A stretch of DNA of 64,000 nt from positions 31,640 to 95,639 of IMG/VR virus record IMGVR_UViG_3300025151_000019. The stretch is one strand, 5' to 3'. Positions 1 to 64,000 of the stretch are shown here, piece after piece. A program made the position numbers and the translations under genes. The first letter of the stretch is position 1. Each line of letters begins with the position of its first letter. Below the pieces are notes generated by a model that was given only the letters and a program-made list of their open reading frames with translations, made no database searches and was not told the DNA's origin. This DNA comes from a virus.

Positions 1-8
1 CATTCAAT

Positions 9-293: not shown

Positions 294-321
294 ACAAAAA
301 GTAAGTAAAAGGTGAACAAAA

Positions 322-2562: not shown

Positions 2563-2595
2563 GGGGATGAAATATTATGAAAAAAGGTGAATATT

Positions 2596-3170: not shown

Positions 3171-3171
3171 T

Positions 3172-5253: not shown

Positions 5254-5257
5254 TTAA

Positions 5258-6013: not shown

Positions 6014-6022
6014 GGGGTTACA

Positions 6023-14864: not shown

Positions 14865-14868
14865 TAAA

Positions 14869-22310: not shown

Positions 22311-22311
22311 T

Positions 22312-32812: not shown

Positions 32813-33075
32813 GATTCCTCATGTTCATCAAGGGTTGTCTGGTCTGGGTGTAGTAAAGACATGGGTAAAGGCTTGTTCAATTCCTCAATACAAGCACTAA
32901 ACAAATGCTTAGGCAACACACCTTCAATTCTATACAGCATCAATTTACCTGCACATCGCAAATGGTAATAAGATTCGCCGCCTTCAATTTCCTGCACTAA
33001 TCCTTCCTCTATACCGTTAAACGGTTCGTGGCAGTAATGGCAAAATTTTCCTTCTTCAATAGTTTTAATGTTCAT
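32809..33075 (-). CDS. Small zinc-binding protein
   Basis: An 88-residue protein with C-H-Y-C-H-E-P-F near the N-terminus and H-L-R-C-A-G-K about 25 residues later, a Cys/His zinc site of a small ribbon or LIM-like type. The C-terminal half is helical with a P-D-Q-T-T-L-D-E end that faintly resembles a PCNA-binding peptide (Q-x-x-L). It lies between the ligase and the LAGLIDADG-like gene with 4-base overlaps. Function unknown. Confidence 0.65.
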   Translation of the reverse strand: MNIKTIEEGKFCHYCHEPFNGIEEGLVQEIEGGESYYHLRCAGKLMLYRIEGVLPKHLFSACIEELNKPLPMSLLHPDQTTLDEHEES

Positions 33076-40836: not shown

Positions 40837-42705
40837 TCAAAAAATTTCGCATGACCCTCCAGAACAGGCAATTTCACCGCTTAGGTCTGTTTCATCTTCT
40901 GTTTCCACAATCTTAGAAAGGTCTACTGCTGTCAAAGTATTAACCATGTCATAGTATTGAGCCATTCTAATAGTTTCAAAGGGTGCTTGTTTGTATGTCC
41001 CACCATCATAGGGTAAAACGGACAAGCCATTGTAGTATTTTCTGTTATTCCACATCCATTCCCCGACTTCATCCCATTCATATTTGCGAATTGATACAGT
41101 AGCGGAGACATTATGGGAGTTCATACCTGAAACATGGCCTCCTTTGACCCATGTGCGACTAATGTTCTTCACCCTATGAAGCATATTCAAAGCGGTTTCC
41201 TCGCCACGGAGGATGGCTTTATCGGGTGCTTTTTGGGGTAATGAAATGACCGCCGTATCATGTGGTCGGAAGTATTCATCCTCAATCAGTTCTGGGTGAT
41301 TTTGAGCCAGATAATTGTAAATGGCTTCATTCTTTCCAACACGGATTCTTCTAATGTAAAATTCGTCGTGCCATGCGTGAATACCGCTTGATGTTCCAAG
41401 AACACATGAAGTTGTTCCTGCTGGTTTAACACAAGTTTGTCTCGCAGCAGGGTTAATTCCAATCTCTTTTGCAATTGATTCATTTGTTGCTTTTATAGCA
41501 TTAGTGATAGCCTTAAAATCCATTTTCCTAACACGATTAGAAGCAATACCTGTCATAGATACACCAATTAGTGCATCACGCTCGGTATTTTTCTGCCAAA
41601 TCTCTCGCAAGTAATGGAAATCAGTATATCCTGCTTGTAGAGTAGCGATAATGGTGGCCGCAGTTGCTCTTTTTAGTAAATCCTCTTCATCAATAACATC
41701 AGAAGCATTAATTTCTACCAAGTTGCAAAACTGATTTGGTCGCAAAGCAATTTCACAGCATGGGTTCGTGCCCCAATCTTTATCATTAGTAAAATAAATT
41801 CCTGGTTCACCTGCACCAGATAATTCAATATATTTCCAAAGTTCTTCAAAGTCCTTTTTCTCAACTTTACTTCGCACTAAGACAGCCGAATTGTTTGCAC
41901 GACCACGCTGAGGATTTAGTTCCCACCAATTGCCTGATTTTGCAGTAAGCATATCATAATCGTCACGGCTAAATAAAGAAATTAAAGCCGCACGACGAAT
42001 ACCGCCAGCCAAAACTGCATCAGCAATATGACACATAATATCATGGACTTGAATAGGTTCTAATTGTTCATGATTGGGGGTGTTTTTTAGAATGCCTTCA
42101 ATTTTATTAATGGCAATTTTTAGTGGTTCAGGGCCTGGGGCTTTTCCTCCAGAAGTAATTAAACGCTCTCCTTTCAAACGAACATCCGAATAATCAAAGA
42201 TTGGCGTTGAGGTGTTTCGGCCAAAGTAAGATTTCATTAAAACTTTTATTGCGTCTGACCATCCCTCAATAGAATCGCCAACTAAATAACGACGAGTTCT
42301 ATTAGGATTAGGGTGTATAACAGACGGTAATCGGGAAACATGATGTTTTTGCACCGAATAACCTACTCCTGTCCCGCCAAGTAAAAGAAACATTGACTCA
42401 CTAAATGCTGCAATGTTATCAATAGGCATATATGCACAATTATAGATTCGGTTTGGGCTTAGTTCAATAGGCTTCCCAGCAAATTGCATTGAACGCATAG
42501 ATGGTAGAACCTTTTTACTCCTCACAAAGTTGTAGGCGTTAGTAATAACTTTCTTCAATTCGGGATATTTCTTAATATGCATATTCATATTTCTGTCGCA
42601 TAGTTCTTCCCAAGTCTCTCTTCGTTGTAGTTCAGGTGCGTATTTTGCATATTTCATATGAACGGTAATATCGCTCAAAATTTCATTAGGATTTATGTTT
42701 GTCAT
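40837..42705 (-). CDS. nrdJ: Class II ribonucleotide reductase (adenosylcobalamin-dependent)
   Basis: A 622-residue enzyme that reduces ribonucleotides to deoxyribonucleotides for viral replication. Signatures: L-L-L-G-G-T-G-V-G-Y-S-V, N-P-C-C-E-I-A-L (active-site Cys), F-C-N-L-V-E-I-N (Cys/Glu radical site), C-V-K-P-A-G-T-T-S and a terminal A-C-S-G-G-S-C-E-I-F redox pair. The shape fits the monomeric RTPR-like class II group and no small radical subunit gene is needed or seen. B12 must come from the host. The start follows AAGTGAAATT. Confidence 0.93.
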   Translation of the reverse strand: MTNINPNEILSDITVHMKYAKYAPELQRRETWEELCDRNMNMHIKKYPELKKVITNAYNFVRSKKVLPSMRSMQFAGKPIELSPNRIYNCAYMPIDNIAAFSESMFLLLGGTGVGYSVQKHHVSRLPSVIHPNPNRTRRYLVGDSIEGWSDAIKVLMKSYFGRNTSTPIFDYSDVRLKGERLITSGGKAPGPEPLKIAINKIEGILKNTPNHEQLEPIQVHDIMCHIADAVLAGGIRRAALISLFSRDDYDMLTAKSGNWWELNPQRGRANNSAVLVRSKVEKKDFEELWKYIELSGAGEPGIYFTNDKDWGTNPCCEIALRPNQFCNLVEINASDVIDEEDLLKRATAATIIATLQAGYTDFHYLREIWQKNTERDALIGVSMTGIASNRVRKMDFKAITNAIKATNESIAKEIGINPAARQTCVKPAGTTSCVLGTSSGIHAWHDEFYIRRIRVGKNEAIYNYLAQNHPELIEDEYFRPHDTAVISLPQKAPDKAILRGEETALNMLHRVKNISRTWVKGGHVSGMNSHNVSATVSIRKYEWDEVGEWMWNNRKYYNGLSVLPYDGGTYKQAPFETIRMAQYYDMVNTLTAVDLSKIVETEDETDLSGEIACSGGSCEIF

Positions 42706-51094: not shown

Positions 51095-51439
51095 ATGGGC
51101 TGGTTTAACCTATTGAAGAGTCCCAAAGGGTATTATTCTTCTGATTCGGAAAAGAGATATAATTACCACTTTAGAAAAATGAAAGAATTTAAGGATGATT
51201 ACAAAGAGTATTGGTATAAGTCCGACAAATGGGGAATATCAATGAAAAGGGTCTATGGTGGAAAATATGAATTTCATAAAAAAATGGCTGAAAAGGCAAG
51301 TAAAGGATTAACGACTCTCTATGAACCTGAGAATGGTTATGAGGAATATGAATCTGAAGAATATAAAAATGCAGAAAAGACTCAGCATCTTGCCTTTGAC
51401 CCATTTAATTTAAAAGACGAGCCATATGTTGAAGGTTGA
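51095..51439 (+). CDS. Tagged protein 1 (M-G-W-F-N-L-L-K)
   Basis: A 114-residue protein, first of 24 in a row with the tag M-x-W-x-x-[IL]-[LIV]-K. I start it at 51095 so that the tag is at the N-terminus; no ribosome binding site is seen. The rest is polar, with many Tyr, Lys and Glu (D-Y-K-E-Y-W-Y-K) and an acidic C-terminal part. Function unknown; proposed virion cargo because of the tag. Confidence 0.65.
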   Translation: MGWFNLLKSPKGYYSSDSEKRYNYHFRKMKEFKDDYKEYWYKSDKWGISMKRVYGGKYEFHKKMAEKASKGLTTLYEPENGYEEYESEEYKNAEKTQHLAFDPFNLKDEPYVEG

Positions 51440-51444
51440 TTATT

Positions 51445-51858
51445 ATGGGCTGGTTTGACTTATTGAAGCAGTTCACTTTAGAGCATAACAGGGAAAGATT
51501 GGCTCAATTAGAAAATCAGTTTAGAAATCCTAAAAAGGCAATTGGTTATTTACCTATTGTTTGGGCGGCAGGTATTGAGGATGAGGTTCGCAGTTTAGCA
51601 TCAAATTTAGATTTAGAGTATAAAATGTATGATGCTAAGGGTAGGCCAAGAAGAGAGGATGGTAATTCTTTTGGTAATGGTGGGCATTTTATGTGGAGGC
51701 CAGAAGATGTTGAGCAGGTCTTAGATAAAACGGAATTTCAAGATGTGCAAAGTTTAATTGATTTTATTGCATATAATTCCTATGTTAATAAGCCGTATAG
51801 AAGAGTTATTGATGGCTTATTTGGAACTCCTAATGTAGTCTTGGGGTGTGAAAGATGA
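51445..51858 (+). CDS. Tagged protein 2 (M-G-W-F-D-L-L-K)
   Basis: A 137-residue protein, tag at residues 1-8, then a helical segment and a mixed alpha/beta body with A-I-G-Y-L-P-I-V-W-A. The C-terminus has R-R-V-I-D-G-L-F-G-T-P, an element similar to A-V-I-D-G-L-F-W in tagged protein 3. Its stop overlaps the next start. Function unknown. Confidence 0.7.
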   Translation: MGWFDLLKQFTLEHNRERLAQLENQFRNPKKAIGYLPIVWAAGIEDEVRSLASNLDLEYKMYDAKGRPRREDGNSFGNGGHFMWRPEDVEQVLDKTEFQDVQSLIDFIAYNSYVNKPYRRVIDGLFGTPNVVLGCER

Positions 51859-52196
51859 GTTGGTTCGGTATATTGAAAATGTCCAAGTTTGAAAAGTTTG
51901 GGCAAGCCGCCGTTATTGATGGATTATTTTGGGACAGAATAAAATATACGGAAGATTTTCCTGAGGGTAGACCAGCAGATGAAGGTGATGGAAAAAAGGG
52001 ATATTATAGATTTTTTATTTATCAGGATGAAGTAGATTGGAAAACTAAAAAGGAAGAGCCTCCATTTATGGCACCAAGATTAAATGTGCCCTATGCTGAT
52101 ATATTTGTAAATAAAGAGGCAACCGATTTTAAATTTATTGCGGGTGATGAAGATTTTTACAATAGACTTAGAAATTTGTGGGATGGGGTAGAATGA
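51855..52196 (+). CDS. Tagged protein 3 (M-S-W-F-G-I-L-K)
   Basis: A 113-residue acidic protein with the tag, then A-V-I-D-G-L-F-W and a beta-rich middle (Y-Y-R-F-F-I-Y-Q-D-E-V). Lacks the second conserved block. ATGA-type overlaps on both sides. Function unknown. Confidence 0.7.
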   Translation: MSWFGILKMSKFEKFGQAAVIDGLFWDRIKYTEDFPEGRPADEGDGKKGYYRFFIYQDEVDWKTKKEEPPFMAPRLNVPYADIFVNKEATDFKFIAGDEDFYNRLRNLWDGVE

Positions 52197-52747
52197 GTTG
52201 GTTTGACTTATTAAAGAATATTCAAATCTCAAGTCAGAAGACTTCTTCTAAGGACTATGTGTTACCAGAAGAAGATGAAGAATGTAAAGAATGGTGGTTA
52301 AATCTGGAAGATATGTTAAATGCTCTTGCATCTAAACTTCACCCCGAAAATGGTGATAAAGCATTTTACTTTGACTTTGTTAGAAGTAAATCTGAAGATG
52401 AACTTTGTATTTTGAGAGATGATGTTACAAGAAGATGGAGTTTTTCATATTATTCAAAAGAAACATTATTGAGGAATGTATTTAGGTCTAATAAAAGTCA
52501 CTTTTGGATAAGTGCCTATGAAATAAGACCAGACTATACTTGCATAATATCTTTAAGCGTCAGTGGACCAGAAGACTATTATTCCGAAGAAATTTTATGG
52601 AAAGATTTAAACGAATACCCAGCCGATTACAGAACAGAGATTGATGCTATTGGTAAGCAATTAAAAACGGGAGGTCTATTACTATCATTTATGGACAAGA
52701 CTTCTGACATGGCGAGAGACATGGCGAGAGAGGAGGAAGAAAAATGA
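52193..52747 (+). CDS. Tagged two-cysteine module protein 4
   Basis: A 184-residue protein. Tag M-S-W-F-D-L-L-K, then the second conserved block (N-I-Q-I-S-S-Q-K-T-S-S-K-D-Y-V, ending L-P-E-E-D-E-E-C with C31), then W-W in the first module helix and a second conserved Cys in D-E-L-C. The rest is mixed alpha/beta. First of six single-module proteins in succession. Function unknown. Confidence 0.75.
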   Translation: MSWFDLLKNIQISSQKTSSKDYVLPEEDEECKEWWLNLEDMLNALASKLHPENGDKAFYFDFVRSKSEDELCILRDDVTRRWSFSYYSKETLLRNVFRSNKSHFWISAYEIRPDYTCIISLSVSGPEDYYSEEILWKDLNEYPADYRTEIDAIGKQLKTGGLLLSFMDKTSDMARDMAREEEEK

Positions 52748-53247
52748 AGTGGCAGGAAATTTTAAAAAATATTCAAATTAGTAGTCAAAGGACTTCATCA
52801 AAGGACTATGTTAAGCCTGATGAAAAGGAAGATTGCTTTCAGTATTTTTACGATTTAGTTAAAATATTAGATAAGAAATTTGAACTAAAAAGAACGATAT
52901 TTCCTGAAGACTATTGGTGTGAGTTATTTAAACAAGAATGGGTAATAGATACTAGGGCAGATGATACTTGGGCATATTTGGGGGATAACCCTGAAAGCCG
53001 AACCGAACTTGAATATGATATTGTGATAATAATGAGTAAGGACAAATTTAGATTAGGGGACGCATATGTTGATATTATATTTGGAGATGTGGGGGAAGGT
53101 CGTGAATTTGTGGTTAAAACCCCTACTGAGGATAGTGGATTTTGGCTTCGTAACTACCACCCTGAAATGCCTAATTTAAAATATGAAACTTCTGATAGAA
53201 TAGGTTCTATTATTGATGAAGTTAATAGACATGTGAGGGGCAAATAA
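52744..53247 (+). CDS. Tagged two-cysteine module protein 5
   Basis: A 167-residue protein: tag M-K-W-Q-E-I-L-K, second block N-I-Q-I-S-S-Q-R-T-S-S-K-D-Y-V-K-P-D-E, then E-D-C-F-Q-Y-F and D-Y-W-C. Beta-rich C-terminal half. Same layout as its neighbours, although the bodies differ in sequence. The conserved codons differ synonymously from those of its neighbours. Confidence 0.75.
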   Translation: MKWQEILKNIQISSQRTSSKDYVKPDEKEDCFQYFYDLVKILDKKFELKRTIFPEDYWCELFKQEWVIDTRADDTWAYLGDNPESRTELEYDIVIIMSKDKFRLGDAYVDIIFGDVGEGREFVVKTPTEDSGFWLRNYHPEMPNLKYETSDRIGSIIDEVNRHVRGK

Positions 53248-53864
53248 TGTGGCGAGATATTCTTAAAAATATACAGATTAGTGGACAGAGGACTTCCTCA
53301 AGAGATTATGTCCTACCTGATGAAGAAGACGATAGTTGTAAAGAAAGATTTTTTGAGATGATGGAGTTCATTGAAAATAATTGGGAAGGTTCGGTAGATA
53401 GTGATGATGAGGGTGTAGAAGAATGGCCTGAGGAGGTCTACTGTAAGGCTTTAGAATTTATCAATAAGCATACATTCCTATTTCACAATCCTATCCATGA
53501 AGGAAATCCTGAAACTAAATGGACTGACCTTTACAAATATGATAACGCCTTTTCCTTTTATGAGGACACGGGTTTTAAAAGTGATTATGAAGTGAATTTG
53601 GGAATGGGTTTTAAATTAAGATTAACTTATAGAATGGTGGCGTTAAGACCGAATGTAATTAATATTTTTTGTCAAGCAATTATGGGAAATATTAATTTTA
53701 TGTCCTTTGCATCATTTCAAATTTATGAAACATTTAATATTTCAGGTGATGAATTTTCGGCTTTGCTTAGTGAAGAACCGTATGATGATGGTGTGACCAT
53801 TGTTGGAATACCTAAGAATATTGACCCAAGTTATATCAAGAACAAGGATTGGAGGAATTTTTAA
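53247..53864 (+). CDS. Tagged two-cysteine module protein 6
   Basis: A 205-residue protein with tag M-W-R-D-I-L-K (one residue shorter than the others), second block N-I-Q-I-S-G-Q-R-T-S-S-R-D-Y-V, then D-S-C-K-E-R-F-F and E-V-Y-C-K-A. A hydrophobic beta-rich body near residues 110-180. The stop shares the last base A with the next ATG. Confidence 0.75.
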   Translation: MWRDILKNIQISGQRTSSRDYVLPDEEDDSCKERFFEMMEFIENNWEGSVDSDDEGVEEWPEEVYCKALEFINKHTFLFHNPIHEGNPETKWTDLYKYDNAFSFYEDTGFKSDYEVNLGMGFKLRLTYRMVALRPNVINIFCQAIMGNINFMSFASFQIYETFNISGDEFSALLSEEPYDDGVTIVGIPKNIDPSYIKNKDWRNF

Positions 53865-54457
53865 TGTGGCGTGATGTTCTCAAGAATATTCAAATTAGTT
53901 CTCAAAGAACGGGCAGCAAGAACTATGCAGAACCCGACGAAGAAGATGATTGTGTAAAAAGATTTTATGCAGTTATGGAAAAATTAAAAAATCTTCAAAT
54001 TGACGGCCTTGAAAAAGAGGAAACAGAATATGGGCAATTTTTCTTTTATGAAGATGGGAAAGAGTTTGAAGATTTTAAAAATATGGATATGCAAATTGCA
54101 GTTTATCCAGATGCTTTTGGTAATGTGCCCAATGAAATTTTTTGTCTTGCTATTGAGCAATATGAAAATACACCCATAGGAGGTCATAAATTTAAAAAAC
54201 ATGACACCTTTAGAATAATAACAGACAGAGGCAAAGTAGCATCAAGCACATCTAATTACATGACAAGTTATGATGAATTAGTATACTACATAATTATTGC
54301 TAAGGGAGACCATATTGATGATTCCCCTTATGAGGCAGCAAGTATTTTTGTCCGTATTAGAAAATATCGCAAAGGTAGGTATGGAGAAGATGGATTTGTA
54401 AATTTAGAGTTAGTTGATAAACTTAAAAATACAATAGATAAGGTGATGTTATTTTGA
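53864..54457 (+). CDS. Tagged two-cysteine module protein 7
   Basis: A 197-residue protein, tag M-W-R-D-V-L-K, second block N-I-Q-I-S-S-Q-R-T-G-S-K-N-Y-A-E-P-D-E, then D-D-C-V-K-R-F-Y and N-E-I-F-C-L-A-I. The ATG at 53864 puts the tag first; a start 15 bases earlier is possible. Function unknown. Confidence 0.75.
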   Translation: MWRDVLKNIQISSQRTGSKNYAEPDEEDDCVKRFYAVMEKLKNLQIDGLEKEETEYGQFFFYEDGKEFEDFKNMDMQIAVYPDAFGNVPNEIFCLAIEQYENTPIGGHKFKKHDTFRIITDRGKVASSTSNYMTSYDELVYYIIIAKGDHIDDSPYEAASIFVRIRKYRKGRYGEDGFVNLELVDKLKNTIDKVMLF

Positions 54458-54993
54458 AGTGGGAAGACATTCTTAAAAATATCCAAATTGCTGGTCAAAG
54501 AACCAGCAGTAAGGATTATGTAAAACCTGATGAGCCTGACGAATGTTTAACGAAGTTATTGAATCTATCAGATGAGTATCTTAAACTACAAAGAGTGATT
54601 AATTGGAGATATTACTTAGACACATATTGGAATACAGGTGATTTAGCCGTAACACAGGGTTTTAAAGACCCTATCATGGAAGAAACTTGGCCGAGCAAAT
54701 ATGGAATTAGCGAAGATATTCTTTGTTGGTGGGTTGAGAATTTAAAATTACCAGACCATAAATTACCAACTAATAGAGAAGAAAATTATATAGGATTTGC
54801 CACCAAAAAAGACGGCGAAGATAGGGCTTGGTTTTATGCAGACTTTTTTGAATATAAAAGTAAAGGTAAAAAATGTGTAAGGGTTAAAGTTAGATTAATT
54901 TACAAAACAGCCACACATTTTTATTCCGTCTTTAATATTACAGGGCCATCCTACGAAGAGGTTAGAGATTTTATAGCGGAGGCGGTATCATGA
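54454..54993 (+). CDS. Tagged two-cysteine module protein 8 (TTG start)
   Basis: A 179-residue protein, tag M-K-W-E-D-I-L-K, second block N-I-Q-I-A-G-Q-R-T-S-S-K-D-Y-V-K-P-D-E, then D-E-C-L-T-K-L-L and D-I-L-C-W-W. The start must be TTG: no ATG is in frame upstream and an AGGTGATG site lies 9 bases before. Overlaps the upstream stop. Confidence 0.75.
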   Translation: MKWEDILKNIQIAGQRTSSKDYVKPDEPDECLTKLLNLSDEYLKLQRVINWRYYLDTYWNTGDLAVTQGFKDPIMEETWPSKYGISEDILCWWVENLKLPDHKLPTNREENYIGFATKKDGEDRAWFYADFFEYKSKGKKCVRVKVRLIYKTATHFYSVFNITGPSYEEVRDFIAEAVS

Positions 54994-55544
54994 AATGGTT
55001 TCAAATACTAAAGAACATACAAATTGGTAGTCAAAAAACAGGTAGTAAGAATTATGTTAAGCCCGATGAACCTGAAGAGGATTGCTTTGAATGGTTTAAA
55101 CAGTTATATTACCTAATGCAAGGTGAAGAGATTATTGAGCCAGATATGGATATACAACCTTTTAGGGAATACACTAATGAAAAATTATGGTGTCCATTGA
55201 AAAAAGGTATTAAATTTTCAAGAACGACAATGATGAGACAGCCTGGAGTTCAGACTTTGAATTTTAAATCAACAGTATTATTATCGGGAGAAAAGGTTAC
55301 ATTCACTTTATGGGTAGATGTTCCCGAACCAAGTTCAAGATTCGGAGATGATAACTCCTACAATATGTATTTTTCATTGGACTCTACTGCACGAGAAAGA
55401 ATTGATGTAGAATTTTTCCAAATGGCTCAAACAAGAAAACCAACAAAATATGATTTGTATGGTGGAACCCGCAGAATACAGTTTGAGAATTATAAGAAAA
55501 TTGCTGTCAAGGTCGTGAATTATATGAAGGAGGCGATGGGATGA
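54990..55544 (+). CDS. Tagged two-cysteine module protein 9
   Basis: A 184-residue protein, tag M-K-W-F-Q-I-L-K, second block N-I-Q-I-G-S-Q-K-T-G-S-K-N-Y-V-K-P-D-E, then E-D-C-F-E-W-F and K-L-W-C-P-L. The body has a beta-rich T-F-T-L-W-V-D segment. ATGA overlaps on both sides. Function unknown. Confidence 0.75.
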   Translation: MKWFQILKNIQIGSQKTGSKNYVKPDEPEEDCFEWFKQLYYLMQGEEIIEPDMDIQPFREYTNEKLWCPLKKGIKFSRTTMMRQPGVQTLNFKSTVLLSGEKVTFTLWVDVPEPSSRFGDDNSYNMYFSLDSTARERIDVEFFQMAQTRKPTKYDLYGGTRRIQFENYKKIAVKVVNYMKEAMG

Positions 55545-57961
55545 ATTGGGAAGATATTTTGAAAAATATACAGATTAGTAGCCAAAGGACAGGAAGCCGT
55601 GAATATGTAAAGCCTGACGAAGATGAAGAAGTTCCAAATGTGGAACAGGAAGATGAAGATTGTCGTCAATGGTGGAAAGATTTAATGGATATGTGTGATA
55701 AACTATTAGATTATGTATCAGTTGCTAAATACAAAAGGTCGGGATATTTCAAAAATCCAGAATATATGGATAATGAACTATTATGTAAAGCAAAGGAAGT
55801 AATAATTGACCCATCAAAAGACCACAGACTTACGGGAAGATTTAGTTCTAAGCCAGATTGGTATAAATATGACTTTAGGGTAATAGCATTTGGTTCATTG
55901 CAAACATCTTTATCTTTTATTTTTAATACTAACGATGATAACACAATGAGGCCGCGACCTACTTTAACAATTAAGATGCTTATTGAAGGTGAACCAATTT
56001 ATGATAAGACTTCCTCTTTTAATTATGACCATCTCAGTTCGTGGATGGAAATTTCAACAGAGTATGTTATTGAAGAAATTAGTAGTCATATTGACACATC
56101 TAAATTGAGAGAATATATAGAAGAGGTTGATAGGTTATACATAGGATGGGCTAATTCACAAGATGAATTAAACAAGTCCACAATTCAAATTGGTTCACAA
56201 AAGACCTCAAGTAGAGATTATGTGAAGCCAGAAGAAGATGATGAAGATTGTTTTAAATGGTGGAATGGTCTATTTAAAATTATAAAAAGAATGATTTTAG
56301 AGGTGAATAGTGAGTATTCCTCCGACACTCTTGATAATATCAATTTTAAAAATTTAACTAATAAGTATTTATGCGAAAGAAAGGAAAAAATTCTTAAAAA
56401 TCCTCCTCAGTTTTATTTATTAGTAGCGGGATATTATAAATATATGAGTGAACCCGGAGACCCGCTTAATTTTTCTGCATCTGTTGATAAATTAACTCCC
56501 TCAATATTTTTTTATGTGAAATTACATGCACATGTAACTCCCATAAAAGAAGAAGTTTGGGTTCAACTTGAAGAAAATACAAAGGATATTAAGACCTATA
56601 CTCCAGCCGCAGCATTAGAATTAGTAAAGAAATTTCATACTGCTGAATTAGATTTAATGGATTATTTAAATATTGATGGTAACCCTTTAATGACAGCAGA
56701 ACTTATTGAAATTTATGACGATTACCTTAGAGAAACTTTTGATGTAAAGAAAAACATTCAAATTAGCGGACAAAGGACAAGTAGTAGGGACTATGTTAAA
56801 CCTGACGAAGATGATGAAGATTGTAGAGAATGGTGGAGAGAACTTCATAAAATTTTTAATAAAATGATTAGTGCTATTGATAGAAATGCTACACTTGTTA
56901 TTGATAATAAAGTTGAGAAAACGGACAACCAAATCTTATGCGAACTTAGAGATGCTATTCTTAAGATGGATGTAGAGCAAAATACAGCAGGCACATATGG
57001 AAGAAATTTTGTATATAGAAAGGAAGTCATTAAACCTTCTACTCGTGGTGATAAAGTTATCAATATGGGAAACGGAGGTTTAGGTATATATGGAAAAATG
57101 TTAGATACTAAACCCGGCCCTTATTCTGGCTCATACGCCACACGCTTAAACGATAAAATAAATTTCTATTCTTATTATGGCCCTGTGTTCAATCAAACTA
57201 CTTTATTTGATGCAAATGTTTCAATTTGGAACGATAGCATTCTATACGAATTAAACAGAATAAAGGAAAAAACAGGTGAAGGAAAATTGTATGCTTATAG
57301 TGTTGTTGAACCATTTTTGGAAGCAGAACTGGAACTTAAGAAACACATCAACGACCCCAACCCTGCACCATTTATTGCTTCAAAAATAATTGCTATTTAT
57401 GAAACCTACCTCAATTCGGATGTTAAGAAATCTATTACAGTTAGTTCCCAGAAAATATCAGGTAGGAACTATGTCAAACCAGAAGAACCAAATTGCTATG
57501 AGAAAGTTCAAAAAATTGCAGATAAAATTATGAAATTTACTTATCCTGATAAATTTAATATGGACAACCCAGTTAGGGAAAGTAAATATTCTAAATTCTA
57601 CATTAAGGATTATTATCAAGGAATGCCTGTTTCTGAAATAAATGAAAGTGACCGTTTATCTTTAGAAACACACTTTATTGAAAATTTAGATGAAGAAACT
57701 TGTTGTTTAATTTTAGAGACTATTGATAAATACAAAGGACAAAATTTTGTTGAAGCAGAAGTTTCCGCACCAATGGCTGATGGCGCAGAAAAGGGACTAT
57801 TTATTTATACTAAAGAAATTACTACCCAGACCTGTTGGATTCAGATATTTTTCTCGTCAGGGAAACATATCGCCGCCACATTATCTATAAAGTTAGACAT
57901 ACAAACATACATACACCCAAACACTATTATAGATATTGAAGACATATTTGAATCACGATAA
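55541..57961 (+). CDS. Tagged four-module protein (806 residues), polyprotein candidate
   Basis: Starts with the tag M-N-W-E-D-I-L-K and second block, then repeats the second block three more times: near residues 215 (I-Q-I-G-S-Q-K-T-S-S-R-D-Y-V), 406 (I-Q-I-S-G-Q-R-T-S-S-R-D-Y-V) and 632 (I-T-V-S-S-Q-K-I-S-G-R-N-Y-V). Each is followed by an acid-Cys pair (D-C or N-C) and, about 40-70 residues on, a second Cys. Module lengths (about 190-225) match the single-module neighbours. It looks like four such proteins fused. If the second block is a cleavage site it would release four chains. Function unknown. Confidence 0.78.
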   Translation: MNWEDILKNIQISSQRTGSREYVKPDEDEEVPNVEQEDEDCRQWWKDLMDMCDKLLDYVSVAKYKRSGYFKNPEYMDNELLCKAKEVIIDPSKDHRLTGRFSSKPDWYKYDFRVIAFGSLQTSLSFIFNTNDDNTMRPRPTLTIKMLIEGEPIYDKTSSFNYDHLSSWMEISTEYVIEEISSHIDTSKLREYIEEVDRLYIGWANSQDELNKSTIQIGSQKTSSRDYVKPEEDDEDCFKWWNGLFKIIKRMILEVNSEYSSDTLDNINFKNLTNKYLCERKEKILKNPPQFYLLVAGYYKYMSEPGDPLNFSASVDKLTPSIFFYVKLHAHVTPIKEEVWVQLEENTKDIKTYTPAAALELVKKFHTAELDLMDYLNIDGNPLMTAELIEIYDDYLRETFDVKKNIQISGQRTSSRDYVKPDEDDEDCREWWRELHKIFNKMISAIDRNATLVIDNKVEKTDNQILCELRDAILKMDVEQNTAGTYGRNFVYRKEVIKPSTRGDKVINMGNGGLGIYGKMLDTKPGPYSGSYATRLNDKINFYSYYGPVFNQTTLFDANVSIWNDSILYELNRIKEKTGEGKLYAYSVVEPFLEAELELKKHINDPNPAPFIASKIIAIYETYLNSDVKKSITVSSQKISGRNYVKPEEPNCYEKVQKIADKIMKFTYPDKFNMDNPVRESKYSKFYIKDYYQGMPVSEINESDRLSLETHFIENLDEETCCLILETIDKYKGQNFVEAEVSAPMADGAEKGLFIYTKEITTQTCWIQIFFSSGKHIAATLSIKLDIQTYIHPNTIIDIEDIFESR

Positions 57962-57999
57962 GATTATATAATAGTTAAATAAATAATGAGGTGAGCAAC

Positions 58000-58272
58000 A
58001 TGAGTTGGCGAGATATTTTAAAATCTAATTGCACCGAAAAAATGGGATGCCGTTGTGAAGAATGTGCAAAGAAAGCAGAACTTTCTCCTAAGCAAAAGAA
58101 AATCGCTGAAGCGGCAGAACCTAAAGATAAAATTACAGGTGAGGATTTTAAAGAACTAAAGAAGAAGGCTAAGGTCAAGTGTCCTAAGTGTAAGGGAAAG
58201 GGTTGCGACCATTGTAAAAATACAGGCTATCACGAAGTAAGAAGTAGAGGCGCATTTACGGACAGGGATTAA
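58000..58272 (+). CDS. Tagged small zinc protein 11
   Basis: A 90-residue protein, tag M-S-W-R-D-I-L-K, then C-R-C-E-E-C and, near the end, C-P-K-C-K-G-K-G-C-D-H-C-K-N-T-G, a DnaJ-like C-x2-C-x-G-x-G pattern with a basic, Lys-rich middle. A good GAGGTGAGCAAC site. Likely zinc-stabilised and nucleic-acid-binding. Confidence 0.75.
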   Translation: MSWRDILKSNCTEKMGCRCEECAKKAELSPKQKKIAEAAEPKDKITGEDFKELKKKAKVKCPKCKGKGCDHCKNTGYHEVRSRGAFTDRD

Positions 58273-58273
58273 A

Positions 58274-58543
58274 ATGTCATGGGAAGATACTCTTTGTAAA
58301 GGTGGTCGTTGCACAAGAGCAACAAAAAAGACCTCCTCAACAAGAAAGGGTAAAAAATGGATGAAGTGTGTTAAAAACCGTAAAGGTAAAGGATATGTTA
58401 GAAGACATTGGGGGCAAAAGGGAGTTACTGTTTCTGGTAAAAGAAGCGGTAAGCGAAGGAGTCAGTTTAGAGCAAGACATAATTGTAAATCTTGTAAAGG
58501 TGGAGACAATTCTCCGAGATGTTTGGCTTGTGGGGATTGGTAA
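58274..58543 (+). CDS. Tagged basic Cys protein 12 (F-R-A-R-H-N-C family)
   Basis: An 89-residue, very basic protein. Variant tag M-S-W-E-D-T-L-C, then R-R-H-W-G-Q-K-G-V and Q-F-R-A-R-H-N-C, ending R-C-L-A-C-G-D-W. This 'FRARHNC…C..W' pattern is one I recall in small proteins of cyanophages and large marine viruses. The Lys/Arg content and Cys residues suit a DNA-binding structural protein inside the virion. Confidence 0.75.
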   Translation: MSWEDTLCKGGRCTRATKKTSSTRKGKKWMKCVKNRKGKGYVRRHWGQKGVTVSGKRSGKRRSQFRARHNCKSCKGGDNSPRCLACGDW

Positions 58544-58545
58544 TT

Positions 58546-59271
58546 ATGGATTGGTTTGATGAACTCCAAAAAAAGAAAGAGAAGGGAATGAGAAAACTAT
58601 CACAATATTTAGAGGATAACGGATTTAGTATCGTTGAACAAGAAGAAGGAGGAAAGCATTTAACAATCAAGGTTAGGAGACTTGAAGATAAAAATGATGT
58701 TGATGCACAAACAGTCGTTACAACAGTTTCACATAAAACATCTGGAGATTCGGGAAAGGGTCGTCTAAAAATGGTATTAAGAGAAATTCAAAATTTATTT
58801 AGAGGTAGAAAAAGAAGAGGACAAGGTGAGTTTAAGTTGTCGGAAAATTATAAAGAAGAAACATGGACAGATATTTTAAAAATAGATGGTGGTTCTATTG
58901 TGCAGTTTATTCAACTGTTAGTAGATGCAGATTTACCGCTTCAAATGGCGAGAAAATTAAATGGGAAAATGAAGGAATTATATCCTACTGGAGATAGCGA
59001 AAGCATCCGACCTAAACGAAGACTTTCTGATAATAAGTCTATTAGATATTTTAATGATAAGGTTAAAGCGATGTCTGTTCAAAAAAGAGCAAGAATCGCA
59101 TCCAAAATAGCAGGACTTTATGAGACTACTGACGACACTTCAATGAAACCTGGAGAGGGTTATGATGGTTCAGTTCGTTCACAAACACGACCAGAACAAT
59201 TTGAAAATATCACAGATGCTGAATTAGAAATGTTAGTTAAATATATGCTACACCTAATTGAAACGATGTGA
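58546..59271 (+). CDS. Tagged protein 13 with an internal tag
   Basis: A 241-residue protein starting with a variant tag (M-D-W-F-D-E-L-Q). At residues 106-112 it has T-W-T-D-I-L-K, a second tag, preceded by a Lys/Arg-rich stretch (G-R-K-R-R-G-Q-G). The part after this looks like a separate protein: helical, with L-P-L-Q-M-A-R-K-L-N and V-K-A-M-S-V-Q-K-R. Likely a fusion of two tagged genes. Function unknown. Confidence 0.72.
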   Translation: MDWFDELQKKKEKGMRKLSQYLEDNGFSIVEQEEGGKHLTIKVRRLEDKNDVDAQTVVTTVSHKTSGDSGKGRLKMVLREIQNLFRGRKRRGQGEFKLSENYKEETWTDILKIDGGSIVQFIQLLVDADLPLQMARKLNGKMKELYPTGDSESIRPKRRLSDNKSIRYFNDKVKAMSVQKRARIASKIAGLYETTDDTSMKPGEGYDGSVRSQTRPEQFENITDAELEMLVKYMLHLIETM

Positions 59272-59276
59272 TATGT

Positions 59277-59564
59277 ATGGCTTGGGAAAGTATCATCAAG
59301 AGAAAGGAATTGCCCGCACCTAAAAATAGTGGTGTTAAAGACAGGGTTCTTTCAGATTTTGAAGTGCCTACCCTAAGAGATAGACTTGGCCCGTATGAAA
59401 AAAAGGTTCCTGGAATTGAAATTTTTGAAGCCCTTCACGAAAGATTAGTTAGTATTATAACTTTTATTATTTTGGAAGAAAATAAGTATAAAATTTCTCC
59501 AGAACTTAAAGAAATCAAAAGAGAGATAAAGGAGTTACAAGAATTATTTGAGAATTTTTATTGA
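59277..59564 (+). CDS. Tagged protein 14 (M-A-W-E-S-I-I-K)
   Basis: A 95-residue mostly helical protein; after the tag, P-A-P-K-N-S-G-V, then R-D-R-L-G-P-Y-E and two helices (E-R-L-V-S-I-I-T-F-I-I). Helical content and size suit a small structural or adaptor part. Start at 59277 places the tag first; a GATGTGATATGT site precedes. Confidence 0.65.
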   Translation: MAWESIIKRKELPAPKNSGVKDRVLSDFEVPTLRDRLGPYEKKVPGIEIFEALHERLVSIITFIILEENKYKISPELKEIKREIKELQELFENFY

Positions 59565-59573
59565 GGGGTAAAT

Positions 59574-59933
59574 ATGACTTGGGAAAATATTTTAAAAACC
59601 GAATTTGAAGTGGTTGAAGAATATAATATATACGACGACCCAAAGTTTTACACACCTAAACAACGAGACAGAAAGAAAAAGGAAATGGAAGAGGCTAAAC
59701 GAAGATTAGGTCGGGATAATTTCATGGTGAGAGAGATTCCAGATATGGAACAAGTAAGACATAGAAATATTAACATTAGTATCATGAGAGAGGCAATAGA
59801 TGATGCTTTAGAATTAGTTGATTTGTATAAAGATATTCCTTCAGTAGATAAAATGAAAGTTAGGGAAATTGAGCGTAGAATAAAAAAGATAGCAACAATG
59901 CTTCAAAGTTCTAAATTAACACAACCATTGTAG
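59574..59933 (+). CDS. Tagged protein 15 (M-T-W-E-N-I-L-K)
   Basis: A 119-residue helical protein rich in Lys, Arg and Glu, e.g. R-D-R-K-K-K-E-M-E-E-A-K. The C-terminal half (I-S-I-M-R-E-A-I-D-D-A-L-E-L) is a helical pair like that of tagged protein 14 (E-A-L-H-E-R-L). Preceded by GAGGGGTAAAT. Function unknown. Confidence 0.7.
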   Translation: MTWENILKTEFEVVEEYNIYDDPKFYTPKQRDRKKKEMEEAKRRLGRDNFMVREIPDMEQVRHRNINISIMREAIDDALELVDLYKDIPSVDKMKVREIERRIKKIATMLQSSKLTQPL

Positions 59934-59943
59934 GAGGGATAAA

Positions 59944-60789
59944 ATGTCTTGGGAAAATATTGTTAAAAGAACCAATAAGATTAATCTTATTAATGCCTAC
60001 AAAGAAGCCATTAAAAAATATTATGAAGAAAATGATTTAGGTGAATTTGATTTAGAAAGACTCCACTCAGAAAGTAAAGATTATGCAATTACATATCTTC
60101 GCAGGCATCCAAATGTAAATCCAAGGGCAGTAAGTTCTTGGTTTAAACACAAGTCAAAAAACGTATTACGACAAGTTATTTTACCAGCGATGCAAAATGA
60201 GGGATTAATTGAAAGAATTAATTCTAAAAGACAAACAGGTTTATACAAATCTTGGGACTCTACATTAAAATCAAAAGCAACTAAGGCAAGAAGATTAGTT
60301 GAAAAGACTATCAAGGAAATGGTAGAACAATATGTTGAAGGTAAAGATAAAATTTTTACTGAGGATTTAAAGCAGCATATTATTGATAATTTAAAAGCCG
60401 AGCATATTAAAAGACACTCAGTTGATGGTAAAGTAAGTAATGTTATTTCACGACAGCCTACCCAATATATTCAACATAAATTAGAGACTACATTCCCTAC
60501 TAAAATTATACCAATGGCAAAAAGTTTTGGGTATGGTATAGTATATGGAAGACCGAGCCGAGGAAAACCTACATATCTTATTAAGAAATCAGACTCTTGG
60601 GAATCAATGACTGATTCCATGATTGCAGAAGGTAAATTATTTGAAGCAATCTACGCCGCTATCTTGCAGAAATTTAAATTCTCAGCACCATCTAAGGAAA
60701 AGGTTGTTGCCTACCTAAATGCTAATTATGAAAGGCATCCTTTATTTAGTAATAAGTGGTCTACTAAAAATGAGGGTGAGGGTCAATGA
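59944..60789 (+). CDS. Tagged protein 16, three-part fusion with internal tags
   Basis: A 281-residue protein starting with M-S-W-E-N-I-V-K. Degraded tags recur at residues 103-109 (S-W-D-S-T-L-K) and 218-224 (S-W-E-S-M-T-D). The piece after the first internal tag (A-R-R-L-V-E-K-T-I-K, K-G/E-G-K-D-K…F-T-E-D-L) aligns with the N-terminal half of tagged protein 21 at 62098 (V-I-H-K-S-V-K-K-L, K-G-K-D-S-F). The three parts are similar in size (about 60-115) and helical, probably winged-helix-like. Function unknown. Confidence 0.72.
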   Translation: MSWENIVKRTNKINLINAYKEAIKKYYEENDLGEFDLERLHSESKDYAITYLRRHPNVNPRAVSSWFKHKSKNVLRQVILPAMQNEGLIERINSKRQTGLYKSWDSTLKSKATKARRLVEKTIKEMVEQYVEGKDKIFTEDLKQHIIDNLKAEHIKRHSVDGKVSNVISRQPTQYIQHKLETTFPTKIIPMAKSFGYGIVYGRPSRGKPTYLIKKSDSWESMTDSMIAEGKLFEAIYAAILQKFKFSAPSKEKVVAYLNANYERHPLFSNKWSTKNEGEGQ

Positions 60790-61301
60790 GTTGGAAACAA
60801 ATTTTAAAACTTGCCAGAACAAATAATCCTACTCCTGAAAAACTACACGGAAACGATGCGTATTTAGTAAATGATGATATTTATAGAGAGGCTGGCGGTT
60901 CAGTAATAGATTTTAGTAGAATGAAACCAGACGGAACCTATGAGTCCAGCGAAGGCGATAGATTTATGGATATTGAAGATATTGAAGAAGCCATAGGAAG
61001 AAAATTAACAATTAATGATTTTAAAAACCATCACCTTAATTGGAAAAGCAACACAAATAAAACTCTATTAGATAGAGTCGGCGGTCTTAGGGGACAACAA
61101 CAATTAGCAGAAAATCAAATTGAAGAAATGCTTGATGGGTTACATAGAGGACAACCTGTTGATTCACCGCAAACATATTTTAATATTTTTAAAGCATTTA
61201 TGGAAATATTTGGTGATAAATCCCGACTTGTTGATGAGGTTATTTATGCCTTAAGAACATACATGGGTATTTATGCTACAAGGCAAGGTGATGGTCAATG
61301 A
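60786..61301 (+). CDS. Tagged protein 17 (M-S-W-K-Q-I-L-K)
   Basis: A 171-residue soluble protein: tag, then N-D-A-Y-L-V-N-D-D-I-Y, D-I-E-E-A-I-G-R-K-L, a T-L-L-D-R-V-G-G-L-R-G loop and a helical C-terminus. No family recognised. ATGA overlaps on both sides. Confidence 0.7.
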   Translation: MSWKQILKLARTNNPTPEKLHGNDAYLVNDDIYREAGGSVIDFSRMKPDGTYESSEGDRFMDIEDIEEAIGRKLTINDFKNHHLNWKSNTNKTLLDRVGGLRGQQQLAENQIEEMLDGLHRGQPVDSPQTYFNIFKAFMEIFGDKSRLVDEVIYALRTYMGIYATRQGDGQ

Positions 61302-61474
61302 GTTGGAAAAGGTTAATCAAAGAATATACTCGTGAGGATAGTTTAGAATATTTATTTGGTCAAGTTTATGAAGTGCTTGGGGACTTAGAATTTAATGTTA
61401 TGAAAGAAAAAGATTACTCGGATGAGTTCAAAACTTTTAAAAAAGTATTAGAGGATTTATTTAAGGAGTTGTAA
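61298..61474 (+). CDS. Tagged protein 18 (58 residues)
   Basis: Read directly from the sequence, in an ATGA overlap with the gene upstream. Tag variant M-S-W-K-R-L-I-K, then a short helical body (L-E-Y-L-F-G-Q-V-Y-E-V-L) with charged ends. The tag shows that this small gene belongs to the series. Function unknown. Confidence 0.7.
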   Translation: MSWKRLIKEYTREDSLEYLFGQVYEVLGDLEFNVMKEKDYSDEFKTFKKVLEDLFKEL

Positions 61475-61476
61475 TA

Positions 61477-61707
61477 ATGAGTTGGGAAGACATTCTTAAG
61501 AGAAATAAGGGTGGAAGAGGTCGCACCCGTAAAAAGGGCAAGGCTCGCAAGAAAAGAAAAAAGGCGAGCAGAAAAAAAGATGCCTGTTATAATAAGGTTC
61601 GTTCTCGCTACAAAAAATGGCCTTCTGCGTATGCTTCAGGTGCATTAGTTCGTTGTCGTAAGGTGGGTGCTAAAAATTGGGGCAACAAATCAAAGAAAAA
61701 GAAGTGA
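61477..61707 (+). CDS. Tagged very basic protein 19 (K-W-P-S-A-Y-A-S-G family)
   Basis: A 76-residue protein, tag M-S-W-E-D-I-L-K, then a Lys/Arg stretch (about 15 basic residues in 25), followed by K-K-W-P-S-A-Y-A-S-G-A-L-V and C-R-K-V-G-A-K-N-W-G. This motif belongs to a small basic domain I recall as DUF5872, also found in algal large DNA viruses and marine phages. It is probably a DNA-condensing or packaging-linked protein. Ends in a Lys-rich tail. Confidence 0.82.
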   Translation: MSWEDILKRNKGGRGRTRKKGKARKKRKKASRKKDACYNKVRSRYKKWPSAYASGALVRCRKVGAKNWGNKSKKKK

Positions 61708-61711
61708 TAAT

Positions 61712-62101
61712 ATGAATTGGGAAATTATTTTAAAGGAACTTGCCTGTCCAAGAGCAACACAGGATTTAAAACTAAATACTAAAAATCGTGATGCTTCTAT
61801 TAAAGCAGAACACATCCAATACGGACCACTTAATTTAGAAGACGAAGGTTATTGGGTTAAAGCCGCAGACCATTGGAATACCACACCAGAAGTTGCTAAA
61901 AAATCTCTTTGTAGTAATTGTGTAGCCTTTGATATTTCACCTCGCATGGAAAAGTGTATGCCTTTGGAGGGCGATTTAGGCTACTGTTGGATGCATCACT
62001 TCAAATGTCATAAAGATAGAACTTGCTATACTTGGGCAAAGGGCGGACCTATTGACGACGATAAAACTTCAAAAGAAAATCAAATGAGGGGAAAACAATG
62101 A
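61712..62101 (+). CDS. Tagged Cys-rich protein 20 (possible HiPIP-like)
   Basis: A 129-residue protein with a variant tag (M-N-W-E-I-I-L-K). The second half has L-C-S-N-C-V-A-F-D-I-S, C-M-P, Y-C-W-M-H-H-F-K-C and C-Y-T-W-A-K-G-G-P-I. I recall similar C-x2-C…C…C patterns with this G-G-P ending in marine phage proteins, sometimes described as high-potential iron-sulfur-like. Six Cys could hold zinc or an Fe-S cluster. The start at 61712 is set by the tag. Confidence 0.72.
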   Translation: MNWEIILKELACPRATQDLKLNTKNRDASIKAEHIQYGPLNLEDEGYWVKAADHWNTTPEVAKKSLCSNCVAFDISPRMEKCMPLEGDLGYCWMHHFKCHKDRTCYTWAKGGPIDDDKTSKENQMRGKQ

Positions 62102-62682
62102 GTTGGGAAGACATTTTAAAATCAGGCTCTCAAAGTCGTAGAACTAAAAATGTTATACACAAGTCAGTTAAAAAATTAATTTTAGAATTTGCTAAAGGAA
62201 AAGATTCTTTTGATAAATTTGACCTTATGAATTATATTGATAATAATTTAGTTGAGCAGGTTAAACAGGATGGAGAACTTGCTAAAATAATTAATGAAAA
62301 TCAGGTCGCAAGAAGAACTAATGCTTATTTAAAAATTGTTGATAATTATTCAACAATTTGGCATAAATATCTTGCGATACAAGGTTATACATTTACAAGA
62401 GAATCTTCTGGAACTAATCGTGGTGGCTCTTTTTCTAAAAATACATTATCTAAAGCAAAACTGCCAGCCGTTAAAACGGAAAAATATAATCTCTATGTTG
62501 TGTTCCTAAAGAAAATTCTAAAGAAAGAAGGTGGTGCTGCTGGAATGAAAAATTTCCTTGAAGAAGGAAAGAAGATGAAAAACTTTGATGAGAGATTCTT
62601 AAACTATGTAATTAGTGATGCACTTGACCACGGCAATTGGTTAGCCGAACACGAATATGGAGACTTTTATTTAAAGGAGTGA
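62098..62682 (+). CDS. Tagged protein 21 (M-S-W-E-D-I-L-K)
   Basis: A 194-residue basic protein. After the tag comes a helical domain (N-V-I-H-K-S-V-K-K-L, K-G-K-D-S-F-D-K-F-D-L) that aligns with the second part of tagged protein 16, then a helical C-terminal half (F-L-K-K-I-L-K-K-E). Probably a winged-helix or similar DNA-binding fold; function unknown. Confidence 0.72.
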   Translation: MSWEDILKSGSQSRRTKNVIHKSVKKLILEFAKGKDSFDKFDLMNYIDNNLVEQVKQDGELAKIINENQVARRTNAYLKIVDNYSTIWHKYLAIQGYTFTRESSGTNRGGSFSKNTLSKAKLPAVKTEKYNLYVVFLKKILKKEGGAAGMKNFLEEGKKMKNFDERFLNYVISDALDHGNWLAEHEYGDFYLKE

Positions 62683-62687
62683 TTTAG

Positions 62688-63053
62688 GTGTCTTGGGAAG
62701 ATATTCTTCAAAAGAAATCAGCGGCCCGACGAAAGAAGGGTTCTAAGTCCCGTAAAAAGAAAGCACGAAGAGGTGGTAAGTCTCGTAAAAGAAGTGGGAA
62801 GTCTCGTAAAAGAAGTGGGGATAATTTAAAGCGTGAAAAAGACAAGGGACTTCACGGATGGTTTGAAAGAGCAGGTGGAAAAGAAAACAAGGATGGTAAA
62901 AGACAGAAAGGTTGGATTGCTTGCGGAACCTGTAATCAAAAAAATGGTCCGAAACCATGTGGAAGAAAGGATGCTTCAAAGGGAAGAAAAAGAAGATGCA
63001 GACCAACATGTGCTGCCTGTAAAACATACAAAAGAAGGAAGGGAACACCATGA
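62688..63053 (+). CDS. Tagged basic Cys protein 22 (G-L-H-G-W-F family; GTG start)
   Basis: A 121-residue protein with GTG start and tag (V/M)-S-W-E-D-I-L-Q, followed by a strongly basic stretch (about residues 12-46), then K-G-L-H-G-W-F-E-R, G-W-I-A-C-G-T-C, K-P-C-G-R and C-R-P-T-C-A-A-C. The second half is the DUF5872-like partner domain that I know from algal viruses and marine phages (W-F … G-W-x-x-C … P-C-G-R … C-R-P-T). Probably DNA-binding and virion-associated. Confidence 0.82.
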   Translation: MSWEDILQKKSAARRKKGSKSRKKKARRGGKSRKRSGKSRKRSGDNLKREKDKGLHGWFERAGGKENKDGKRQKGWIACGTCNQKNGPKPCGRKDASKGRKRRCRPTCAACKTYKRRKGTP

Positions 63054-63913
63054 ATAATTGGAAGAATATTCTTAAGGCCGACAATATTGGTTTTTACGGA
63101 AGTAAATCGGCTGCTTGGTATGACCCCACTACTAAAGAAACATATGTAAATTTAAATAGAATAGTAGGTTTAGATGATTTTTTAGATGCCGACTTACATG
63201 AAACTATACACCAATTTACATATGACGACATACAAGAAAAAATAAAAGAAGTTGTAGACGAAGAAACTAAATTTCTAATAAATAGACCTGATTTATATAG
63301 AGTTGAAGGAAACAAAGTTCAACCTAAGAGACAACTTTTCAATGAAGTTATTTATCACAGTGATAAAATAGCATCCCACATAGCATTTACAGAAATTGTA
63401 ACACTTATTCAGTCCCGAACTAAAGTAAATTATGAAAATGTTGCTCGTGATGAACAGGGCGAGTCTAATTATGCAGAACTTGACCAACATTATAGCGATA
63501 GACAGAATGTATTAGGTTATAGTAATCAATTTACGGAGGAAATGAAAGCGGCATATGCCCCCATGTGGATAAATATTATGAGAGGGGCGTTAAATGCTTT
63601 AGGTGTAGACTATGACGAAGATAAACCTGGGAGAAATTTTCGTGAACATATAACGGAAAGGGGTTTTAACAGACTTAGAAAATTAAGAGATGATTTTTTC
63701 CGCAACATGGGAAATGAGGCGGCATATATATTGTTAAAGGTTTTAGAAGCAAATGAACAAGCCTTTGAACCAACGCTGGATTATATTAAAAAACCAGAAT
63801 CCTACGCTGATGCTAAGGAAAGAATGAAAAGGTTTGAAGAAGAATCCCCTGAAGATAGAGCAAAGAGAATTAAAGATAAAGTTAAGAAAGCCCTGAGGAA
63901 AAAAAATGAATAA
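63050..63913 (+). CDS. Tagged metalloprotease-like protein 23 (HExxH)
   Basis: A 287-residue protein with tag variant M-N-N-W-K-N-I-L-K. The motif L-H-E-T-I-H at residues 49-54 (H50, E51, H54) is a zinc-protease motif, and a preceding L-D-A-D and a following E-x-x-x-H (E-V-I-Y-H at about 108-112) could hold further ligands. Helical, basic end (K-D-K-V-K-K-A-L-R-K-K). It may be a peptidase carried in the virion, possibly acting on other tagged proteins or at the host surface. Only the motif supports this. Confidence 0.68.
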   Translation: MNNWKNILKADNIGFYGSKSAAWYDPTTKETYVNLNRIVGLDDFLDADLHETIHQFTYDDIQEKIKEVVDEETKFLINRPDLYRVEGNKVQPKRQLFNEVIYHSDKIASHIAFTEIVTLIQSRTKVNYENVARDEQGESNYAELDQHYSDRQNVLGYSNQFTEEMKAAYAPMWINIMRGALNALGVDYDEDKPGRNFREHITERGFNRLRKLRDDFFRNMGNEAAYILLKVLEANEQAFEPTLDYIKKPESYADAKERMKRFEEESPEDRAKRIKDKVKKALRKKNE

Positions 63914-64000
63914 ATCTTGGAGTGATATTTTAAAAAATATCCAAATTTCTGGACAGAGAACATCAAGTAGAGATTATGTAAAACCAGAAAAAGACGACGA
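63906..64000 (+). CDS. Tagged two-cysteine module protein 24 (3' truncated by the window)
   Basis: Starts in an overlap with the previous gene and runs off the right edge. Shows the tag (M-N-K-S-W-S-D-I-L-K) and the second block (N-I-Q-I-S-G-Q-R-T-S-S-R-D-Y-V-K-P-E-K), so the tagged series continues past 64,000. Confidence 0.75.
   Translation, partial: MNKSWSDILKNIQISGQRTSSRDYVKPEKDD

Follow-up and report, generated by a model that had tools for sequence, protein, structure and literature searches.

Why would 24 consecutive genes of one virus begin with the same short peptide? These genes lie on the plus strand at the right end of a 64,000-nucleotide stretch of DNA (the window), which covers positions 31640-95639 of the 95,639-base virus record IMGVR_UViG_3300025151_000019, and their products start with M-x-W-x-x-[IL]-[LIV]-K. 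An initial annotation, made from the sequence alone, proposed that this tag is a sorting signal for virion loading similar to that of T4 internal head proteins. Based on the comparisons below, we consider it probable that the tag, refined to M-[SNT]-W-x-[DN]-I-L-K, is a docking peptide, and that tagged cargo is co-assembled with the scaffold into the prohead and ends up in the virion.

The gene calls gave exactly the 24 tagged genes that had been annotated from position 51095 to the right edge. Of their tags, 21 conform to W-x-x-[ILV]-[ILV]-K, whereas the other three are variants (WEDTLC at 58274, WFDELQ at 58546 and WEDILQ at 62688). No other credible gene of the window is tagged, as the annotation had also stated; the sole other pattern match is a 41-amino acid (aa) open reading frame with a TTG start at 33093. 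All genes to the right edge are tagged, but the edge of the window is not the limit of the block. The two ends of the record repeat each other (record 5-97 equals 95545-95637, window 63906-63998), which indicates a circularly assembled or terminally redundant genome and a block that runs on across the ends. Tagged genes resume beyond the right edge at record 5-12095 and 16995, towards the large terminase gene (TerL). Specifically, tags were found in the genes at record positions 5, 1626, 4743, 5000, 11793 and 16995, with looser forms at 1477 and 16546. The synonymous codons used in 25 tags matched the background usage of the genome (P = 0.24), which bears out the earlier claim that the similarity is kept at the protein level.

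The whole-record gene calls revealed two opposed modules, a minus-strand replication module (family B polymerase, ATP-dependent ligase and a clamp-loader-like, RFC-like AAA protein) and, on the plus strand, a late module in which Pfam identified TerL, a Peptidase_S78 prohead protease and an SU10-type capsid protein. The capsid protein is closest to those of the haloviruses HVTV-1, HCTV-1 and HCTV-5 (27-28% identity). Magrovirales, viruses of marine Poseidoniales, are characterized by genomes of 90-110 kb, opposed replication and morphogenesis modules, family B DNA polymerase (PolB), a clamp loader, an ATP-dependent ligase and a capsid protein related to that of Druskaviridae haloviruses (PMC12999244, PMC10768690). 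The present record shows the same set of features, namely a length of 95.6 kb, opposed modules, PolB, the RFC-like AAA protein, the ligase and a Druskaviridae-related capsid protein. Judged by this gene content, the source genome is an archaeal tailed virus of magrovirus type, and its resemblance to the Magrovirales layout suggests marine Poseidoniales as the host.

A TerL search yielded 89 related viral contigs, and all magrovirus genomes examined have the tag. The fetched loci encode 632 distinct tagged proteins in 286 clusters, which are mutually unrelated apart from the tag. When 98 representatives were aligned, the consensus was MxWxDILK with nothing conserved beyond it; the information content is approximately 3 bits at the final K and at most 0.32 bits directly after. 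The strict motif occurs within the first nine residues of 499 of 2492 magrovirus proteins, compared with a mean of 3.6 after shuffling each N-terminus, and its rate per position at N-termini is approximately 400-fold that of protein interiors. The N-terminal tag is therefore not a chance occurrence. Additionally, a DNA-pattern scan of IMG/VR found more than 118 tag stretches versus 8 for a codon-permuted control. In the 20 carriers that differ most from the first ten genomes, the capsid protein is the same in 16 and TerL in 18; a few pattern matches without tagged neighbours seem to be due to chance. The tag clusters near terminase, portal, protease and capsid genes, and the random spread through unrelated genomes that would have spoken against the proposal was not seen. 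A signal of host origin was considered and rejected: in 84,980 cellular genomes (257 Gb), the DNA pattern gave 99 single scattered matches and no clusters, and none of the 80 of these matches that were listed belonged to Poseidoniales. As far as these collections show, the tag appears specific to magroviruses, because most of the divergent viral carriers checked share the capsid protein or TerL and the cellular matches are isolated. The examined half of HVTV-1, which is among the nearest isolates by capsid protein, includes the head genes and has neither tagged genes nor the scaffold tail described below. No earlier mention of the tag strings was found in the literature searched, the coverage of which is incomplete, so an earlier mention is possible.

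Within the genome, tagging follows the late genes. Of the 44 late genes that precede TerL, 24 are tagged, compared with one of 11 between TerL and the major capsid protein (MCP) gene and none of 15 after the MCP gene; the related genomes G001 and G002 show the same pattern. None of the early-strand genes is tagged in this genome or in five others with an assigned late strand. In G005 and G006, some tagged genes follow the capsid gene (6/25 and 5/25, respectively), and in many genomes the portal gene is followed by a large tagged protein. Both arrangements would suit a tag that sends cargo to the portal, neck or tail and not to the capsid interior, so that it would be ejected by way of the tail. 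We consider this destination improbable, because the majority of tagged genes precede TerL and the protease-scaffold, which has the same motif, is a head protein.

The initial annotation described the motif as an N-terminal tag, but it is not confined to N-termini. A search with the N-terminal tag profile against 220,316 non-N-terminal positions identified internal copies such as KSWEDILQ, KKSWENIIK, KSWKYILK and ENSWQSILK, and homolog comparison revealed that proteins encoded by individual tagged genes in one virus form a single fusion protein in another, with the tag at the junction. Moreover, an acetyltransferase-like gene upstream of TerL ends with AMKKAWDIIKGR in two genomes, whereas elsewhere the same gene continues from the motif into modules known as stand-alone tagged proteins. 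A signal tied to the start codon or the N-terminus only is excluded because the tag also occurs at fusion points and C-termini, and a DNA-level or start-site signal is ruled out by the background codon usage together with the internal copies. It has to be asked whether the motif is instead an N-terminal membrane anchor, a secretion signal or a translation-start element, as its short, helix-like character and the spacing of W, I and L onto one face might suggest. The internal and C-terminal copies largely refute this, and with acidic residues in the tag and no clustered occurrence in the cellular genomes, we find it scarcely credible.

Some inner tags have decayed. In the gene at 62098, the junction reads FSKNTLSKAKLPAVKT, compared with the start MWKNILKAKVPAVKT of the separate gene in G002, and the inner modules of the 806-aa fusion protein at 55541 start with the IQIS block without the W..IL of the tag (e.g., TFDVKKNIQIS). 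From these few cases, one tag per chain seems to be enough, as for a targeting label. The IQIS sequence belongs to a second shared block, NIQISSQRTSSKDYVKPDE, which about eight genes carry after the tag (window 52193-57961 and record 5-679) and which also opens inner modules of the 806-aa protein. Other magroviruses have related blocks (NQIQVGRQKLRTD). The occurrence of a block common to some genes (NIQISSQRTSS), together with the position of the tag at module exchange points, could mean that the tag is a functionless relic of duplication or module swapping, in which new genes received a copied start cassette consisting of the ribosome site and the first codons. We regard a relic as very unlikely, because the residues are kept while the codons remain at background usage, the tags persist inside fusions and at C-termini, and the same tag is found across clades whose capsid proteins are 57-58% identical.

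A clue to the mechanism emerged from the head genes. The protease protein has a long extension of acidic and coiled-coil sequence that, by analogy, may serve as the scaffold. In 15 magroviruses, the C-termini of this protease-scaffold protein resemble the tag (e.g., EMSWDEINEL, EMSWNEVHEL, EMSWGDIHNL and EMNWSDIHKM), with W as the sole invariant residue. When the last 25 residues of 77 untagged families were scored against the tag core M-[SND]-W-x-[DE]-I, the protease-scaffold fusion ranked first (mean 8.9 versus 5.5 for the second), and a conserved 75-residue head-module protein ranked fourth. Of the 40 homologs of the latter that were listed, nearly all end with KM[DSE]W[SKTD][DEQ][IL]. The residues common to the tag and the tails are M, S/D/N, W, D/E and I. 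In an AlphaFold model of the protease-scaffold, of which only the C-terminal helices are usable (mean predicted local distance difference test score, pLDDT, of 46), the tail is predicted to form a separate short helix after the coiled coil and a low-confidence linker. In the model of a cargo with two tags, the N-terminal tag (pLDDT below 50) lies outside the confidently folded phosphatase core. These resemblances support, without proving, the view that cargo and scaffold share a docking site.

If so, the virus would have equipped many unrelated late proteins, at either terminus or at the junction of fused modules, with a copy of the C-terminal tail of its own protease-scaffold. The tag, the scaffold tail and the tail of the 75-residue protein would all attach to one conserved site of the growing head, which most simply would be the inner face of the capsid protein. 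Tagged cargo would join the prohead together with the scaffold, end up in the virion and probably be delivered into the next host cell. Several observations weigh against this reading. The scaffold tail shares only M/S/W/D/I with the tag and has no counterpart of the following L-K. In a scan for the motif anywhere in the proteins, the tail ranked fourth among 2868 windows, behind windows from two other families. The tag consensus is the same in three clades while the tail changes, and because no covariation of tag and tail was found between clades, a common partner receives no support from covariation. In addition, some orthologs of tagged proteins are without the tag, and no virion proteome or particle experiment was found in the literature for any magrovirus.

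Pfam and PHROG searches of the tagged proteins of the window gave almost no matches, and most tagged families across the magroviruses match no known family. Those with matches include a soluble-type PAP2 acid phosphatase, GNAT acetyltransferases, a pentapeptide-repeat protein and several HExxH proteins; small basic Cys proteins are also among the cargo. The HExxH protein at 63050 has neither a Pfam nor a PHROG match and no relatives in IMG/VR. A CCA-adding tRNA nucleotidyltransferase that has all three domains and appears complete is tagged as well (MGWMQILK..., L210:875-2122) and, if packaged, could repair tRNA in the newly infected cell. Such enzymes and basic Cys proteins are what would be expected of internal virion proteins. 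A single peptide on many unlike late proteins, shared with the scaffold tail, might also recruit them to an intracellular viral compartment or assembly platform, such as a factory or membrane site, with no packaging involved. We think this unlikely: genome-replication genes, which would be expected at a factory, are never tagged, and a cargo of acid phosphatase and basic Cys proteins fits delivery better than assembly. For the broader form of capsid loading, in which a scaffold-tail-derived peptide, whether terminal or placed between domains, leads to the packing of any protein that carries it, giving rise to a large and fast-changing delivered repertoire, we see the chances as evenly balanced.

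The basic module of the gene at 61477-61707 is nearly identical to a module of T4-like cyanophage proteins. It occurs in 366 phage records, nearly all of cyanophages, with 83-86% identity over 36 residues in the records listed. In the phages inspected, it adjoins the small terminase gene, with the large terminase next in two of them. The phage copies are not annotated as virion proteins, and the module is therefore neutral on virion loading. Its near-identity is a sign of module exchange between archaeal and cyanobacterial ocean viruses.

In T4, ten residues of the capsid-targeting sequence (CTS) suffice for packaging, and the sequence can be transplanted so that foreign proteins are packed (PMC9026906, PMC5694885). 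The magrovirus tag resembles the CTS of T4 proteins IPI-III and Alt in that approximately ten N-terminal residues are common to several unlike proteins and in its cargo of basic proteins and enzymes; in T4, cargo of this kind is loaded in the prohead core. In contrast, the magrovirus tag is W-based and unrelated in sequence, occurs on hundreds of families rather than a handful, shares its motif with the scaffold tail and belongs to an archaeal virus. Moreover, gp21 removes the T4 CTS, whereas no such processing site follows the magrovirus tag: [LIVMA]xE occurs within 15 residues after it in 89 of 286 versus a shuffled mean of 90, a test that covers sites of the [LI]xE type, so a protease of other specificity is possible. 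Because it is not confined to N-termini and lacks this processing motif, the tag is not a T4-type sequence. The initial proposal of T4-like virion loading agrees with the group-wide conservation, the location in late genes by head genes, the position independence and the scaffold-tail motif; the differences from T4 lie in the additional internal and C-terminal placement and in the absence of a T4-type processing site. The tag is thus probably a capsid-loading signal, similar to the CTS in its working idea yet separate from the T4 type.

Other loading systems offer partial parallels. In the giant phage SPN3US, head proteins carry N-terminal targeting propeptides, and two paralogs are identical in their N-terminal 15 residues (PMC5694885). 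Those propeptides are mostly longer than 100 residues and are cut, whereas the magrovirus tag has 8 residues and no detected cleavage motif. The scaffolds of herpesviruses and P22 bind the capsid protein through C-terminal tails. They share with the magrovirus protein the protease-scaffold fusion and a coiled coil followed by a short putative docking helix at the C-terminus; we know of no herpesvirus or P22 in which many cargo genes carry the scaffold-tail motif. Encapsulin cargo-loading peptides, found outside viruses on one or a few cargo enzymes, are comparable as short cargo peptides for an HK97-fold shell and differ in sequence. If our interpretation is right, we know of no capsid-loading code reported earlier from an archaeal virus, and with 286 protein families in the genomes examined, the tag would be used far more widely than any other such code known. 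The delivered proteins of abundant, uncultured ocean viruses, most of which match no known family, could be found from sequence alone, and scaffold-tail mimicry would be a simple rule testable in vitro with three proteins.

Table 1. Tagged genes and the internal tag copy in window positions 51095-64000
Position	Strand	Tag or start	Other features
51095..51439	+	MGWFNLLK	114 aa, body unknown
51445..51858	+	MGWFDLLK	137 aa
51855..52196	+	MSWFGILK	113 aa
52193..52747	+	MSWFDLLK	Followed by second shared block NIQISSQKTSSKDYV
52744..53247	+	MKWQEILK	NIQISSQRTSSKDYVKPDE block
53247..53864	+	MWRDILK	NIQIS block
53864..54457	+	MWRDVLK	NIQIS block
54454..54993	+	MKWEDILK	NIQIA block, TTG start
54990..55544	+	MKWFQILK	NIQIG block
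55541..57961	+	MNWEDILK	806-aa fusion of four modules, tag at N-terminus only
58000..58272	+	MSWRDILK	Cys-rich
58274..58543	+	MSWEDTLC	Variant tag, basic Cys protein
58546..59271	+	MDWFDELQ	Variant tag, ATG at 58546
58861..58881	+	TWTDILK	Internal tag within the 58546-59271 gene
59277..59564	+	MAWESIIK	
59574..59933	+	MTWENILK	
59944..60789	+	MSWENIVK	281 aa
60786..61301	+	MSWKQILK	
61298..61474	+	MSWKRLIK	
61477..61707	+	MSWEDILK	Basic module DACYNKVRSRYKKWPSAYASGALVRCRKVGAKNWG
61712..62101	+	MNWEIILK	Cys-rich
62098..62682	+	MSWEDILK	Fusion of two proteins encoded by separate tagged genes in G002, inner tag decayed
62688..63053	+	MSWEDILQ	LHGWF Cys-rich basic module, GTG start
63050..63913	+	MNNWKNILK	HETIH (HExxH) motif, metallopeptidase-like
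63906..64000	+	MNKSWSDILKNIQISGQRTSS	Start of tagged gene; same sequence opens the record at 5-679

Several further features of these genomes were observed. A 912-aa protein with an ATP-dependent DNA ligase domain is encoded inside the head gene cluster (record 20252-22990; L003:4753-7491), and a second ligase lies in the early module (window 33072-34580). The early module also contains IMP dehydrogenase and B12-dependent ribonucleotide reductase-like genes (window 24904-25944 and 40837-42705). A LAGLIDADG-like homing-endonuclease sequence (YVAGFIDSDGFITMDA) is located between the TerL and portal genes (record 13504-14904; L002). Among the related contigs, one of 184,733 bases (L164, G014) has two magrovirus-type capsid-protein genes and two TerL genes approximately 90 kb apart, and may represent two genomes joined by assembly or a doubled genome. 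The TerL reading frame of the L157 contig (G020:C1:9838-11250) contains one in-frame TGA.

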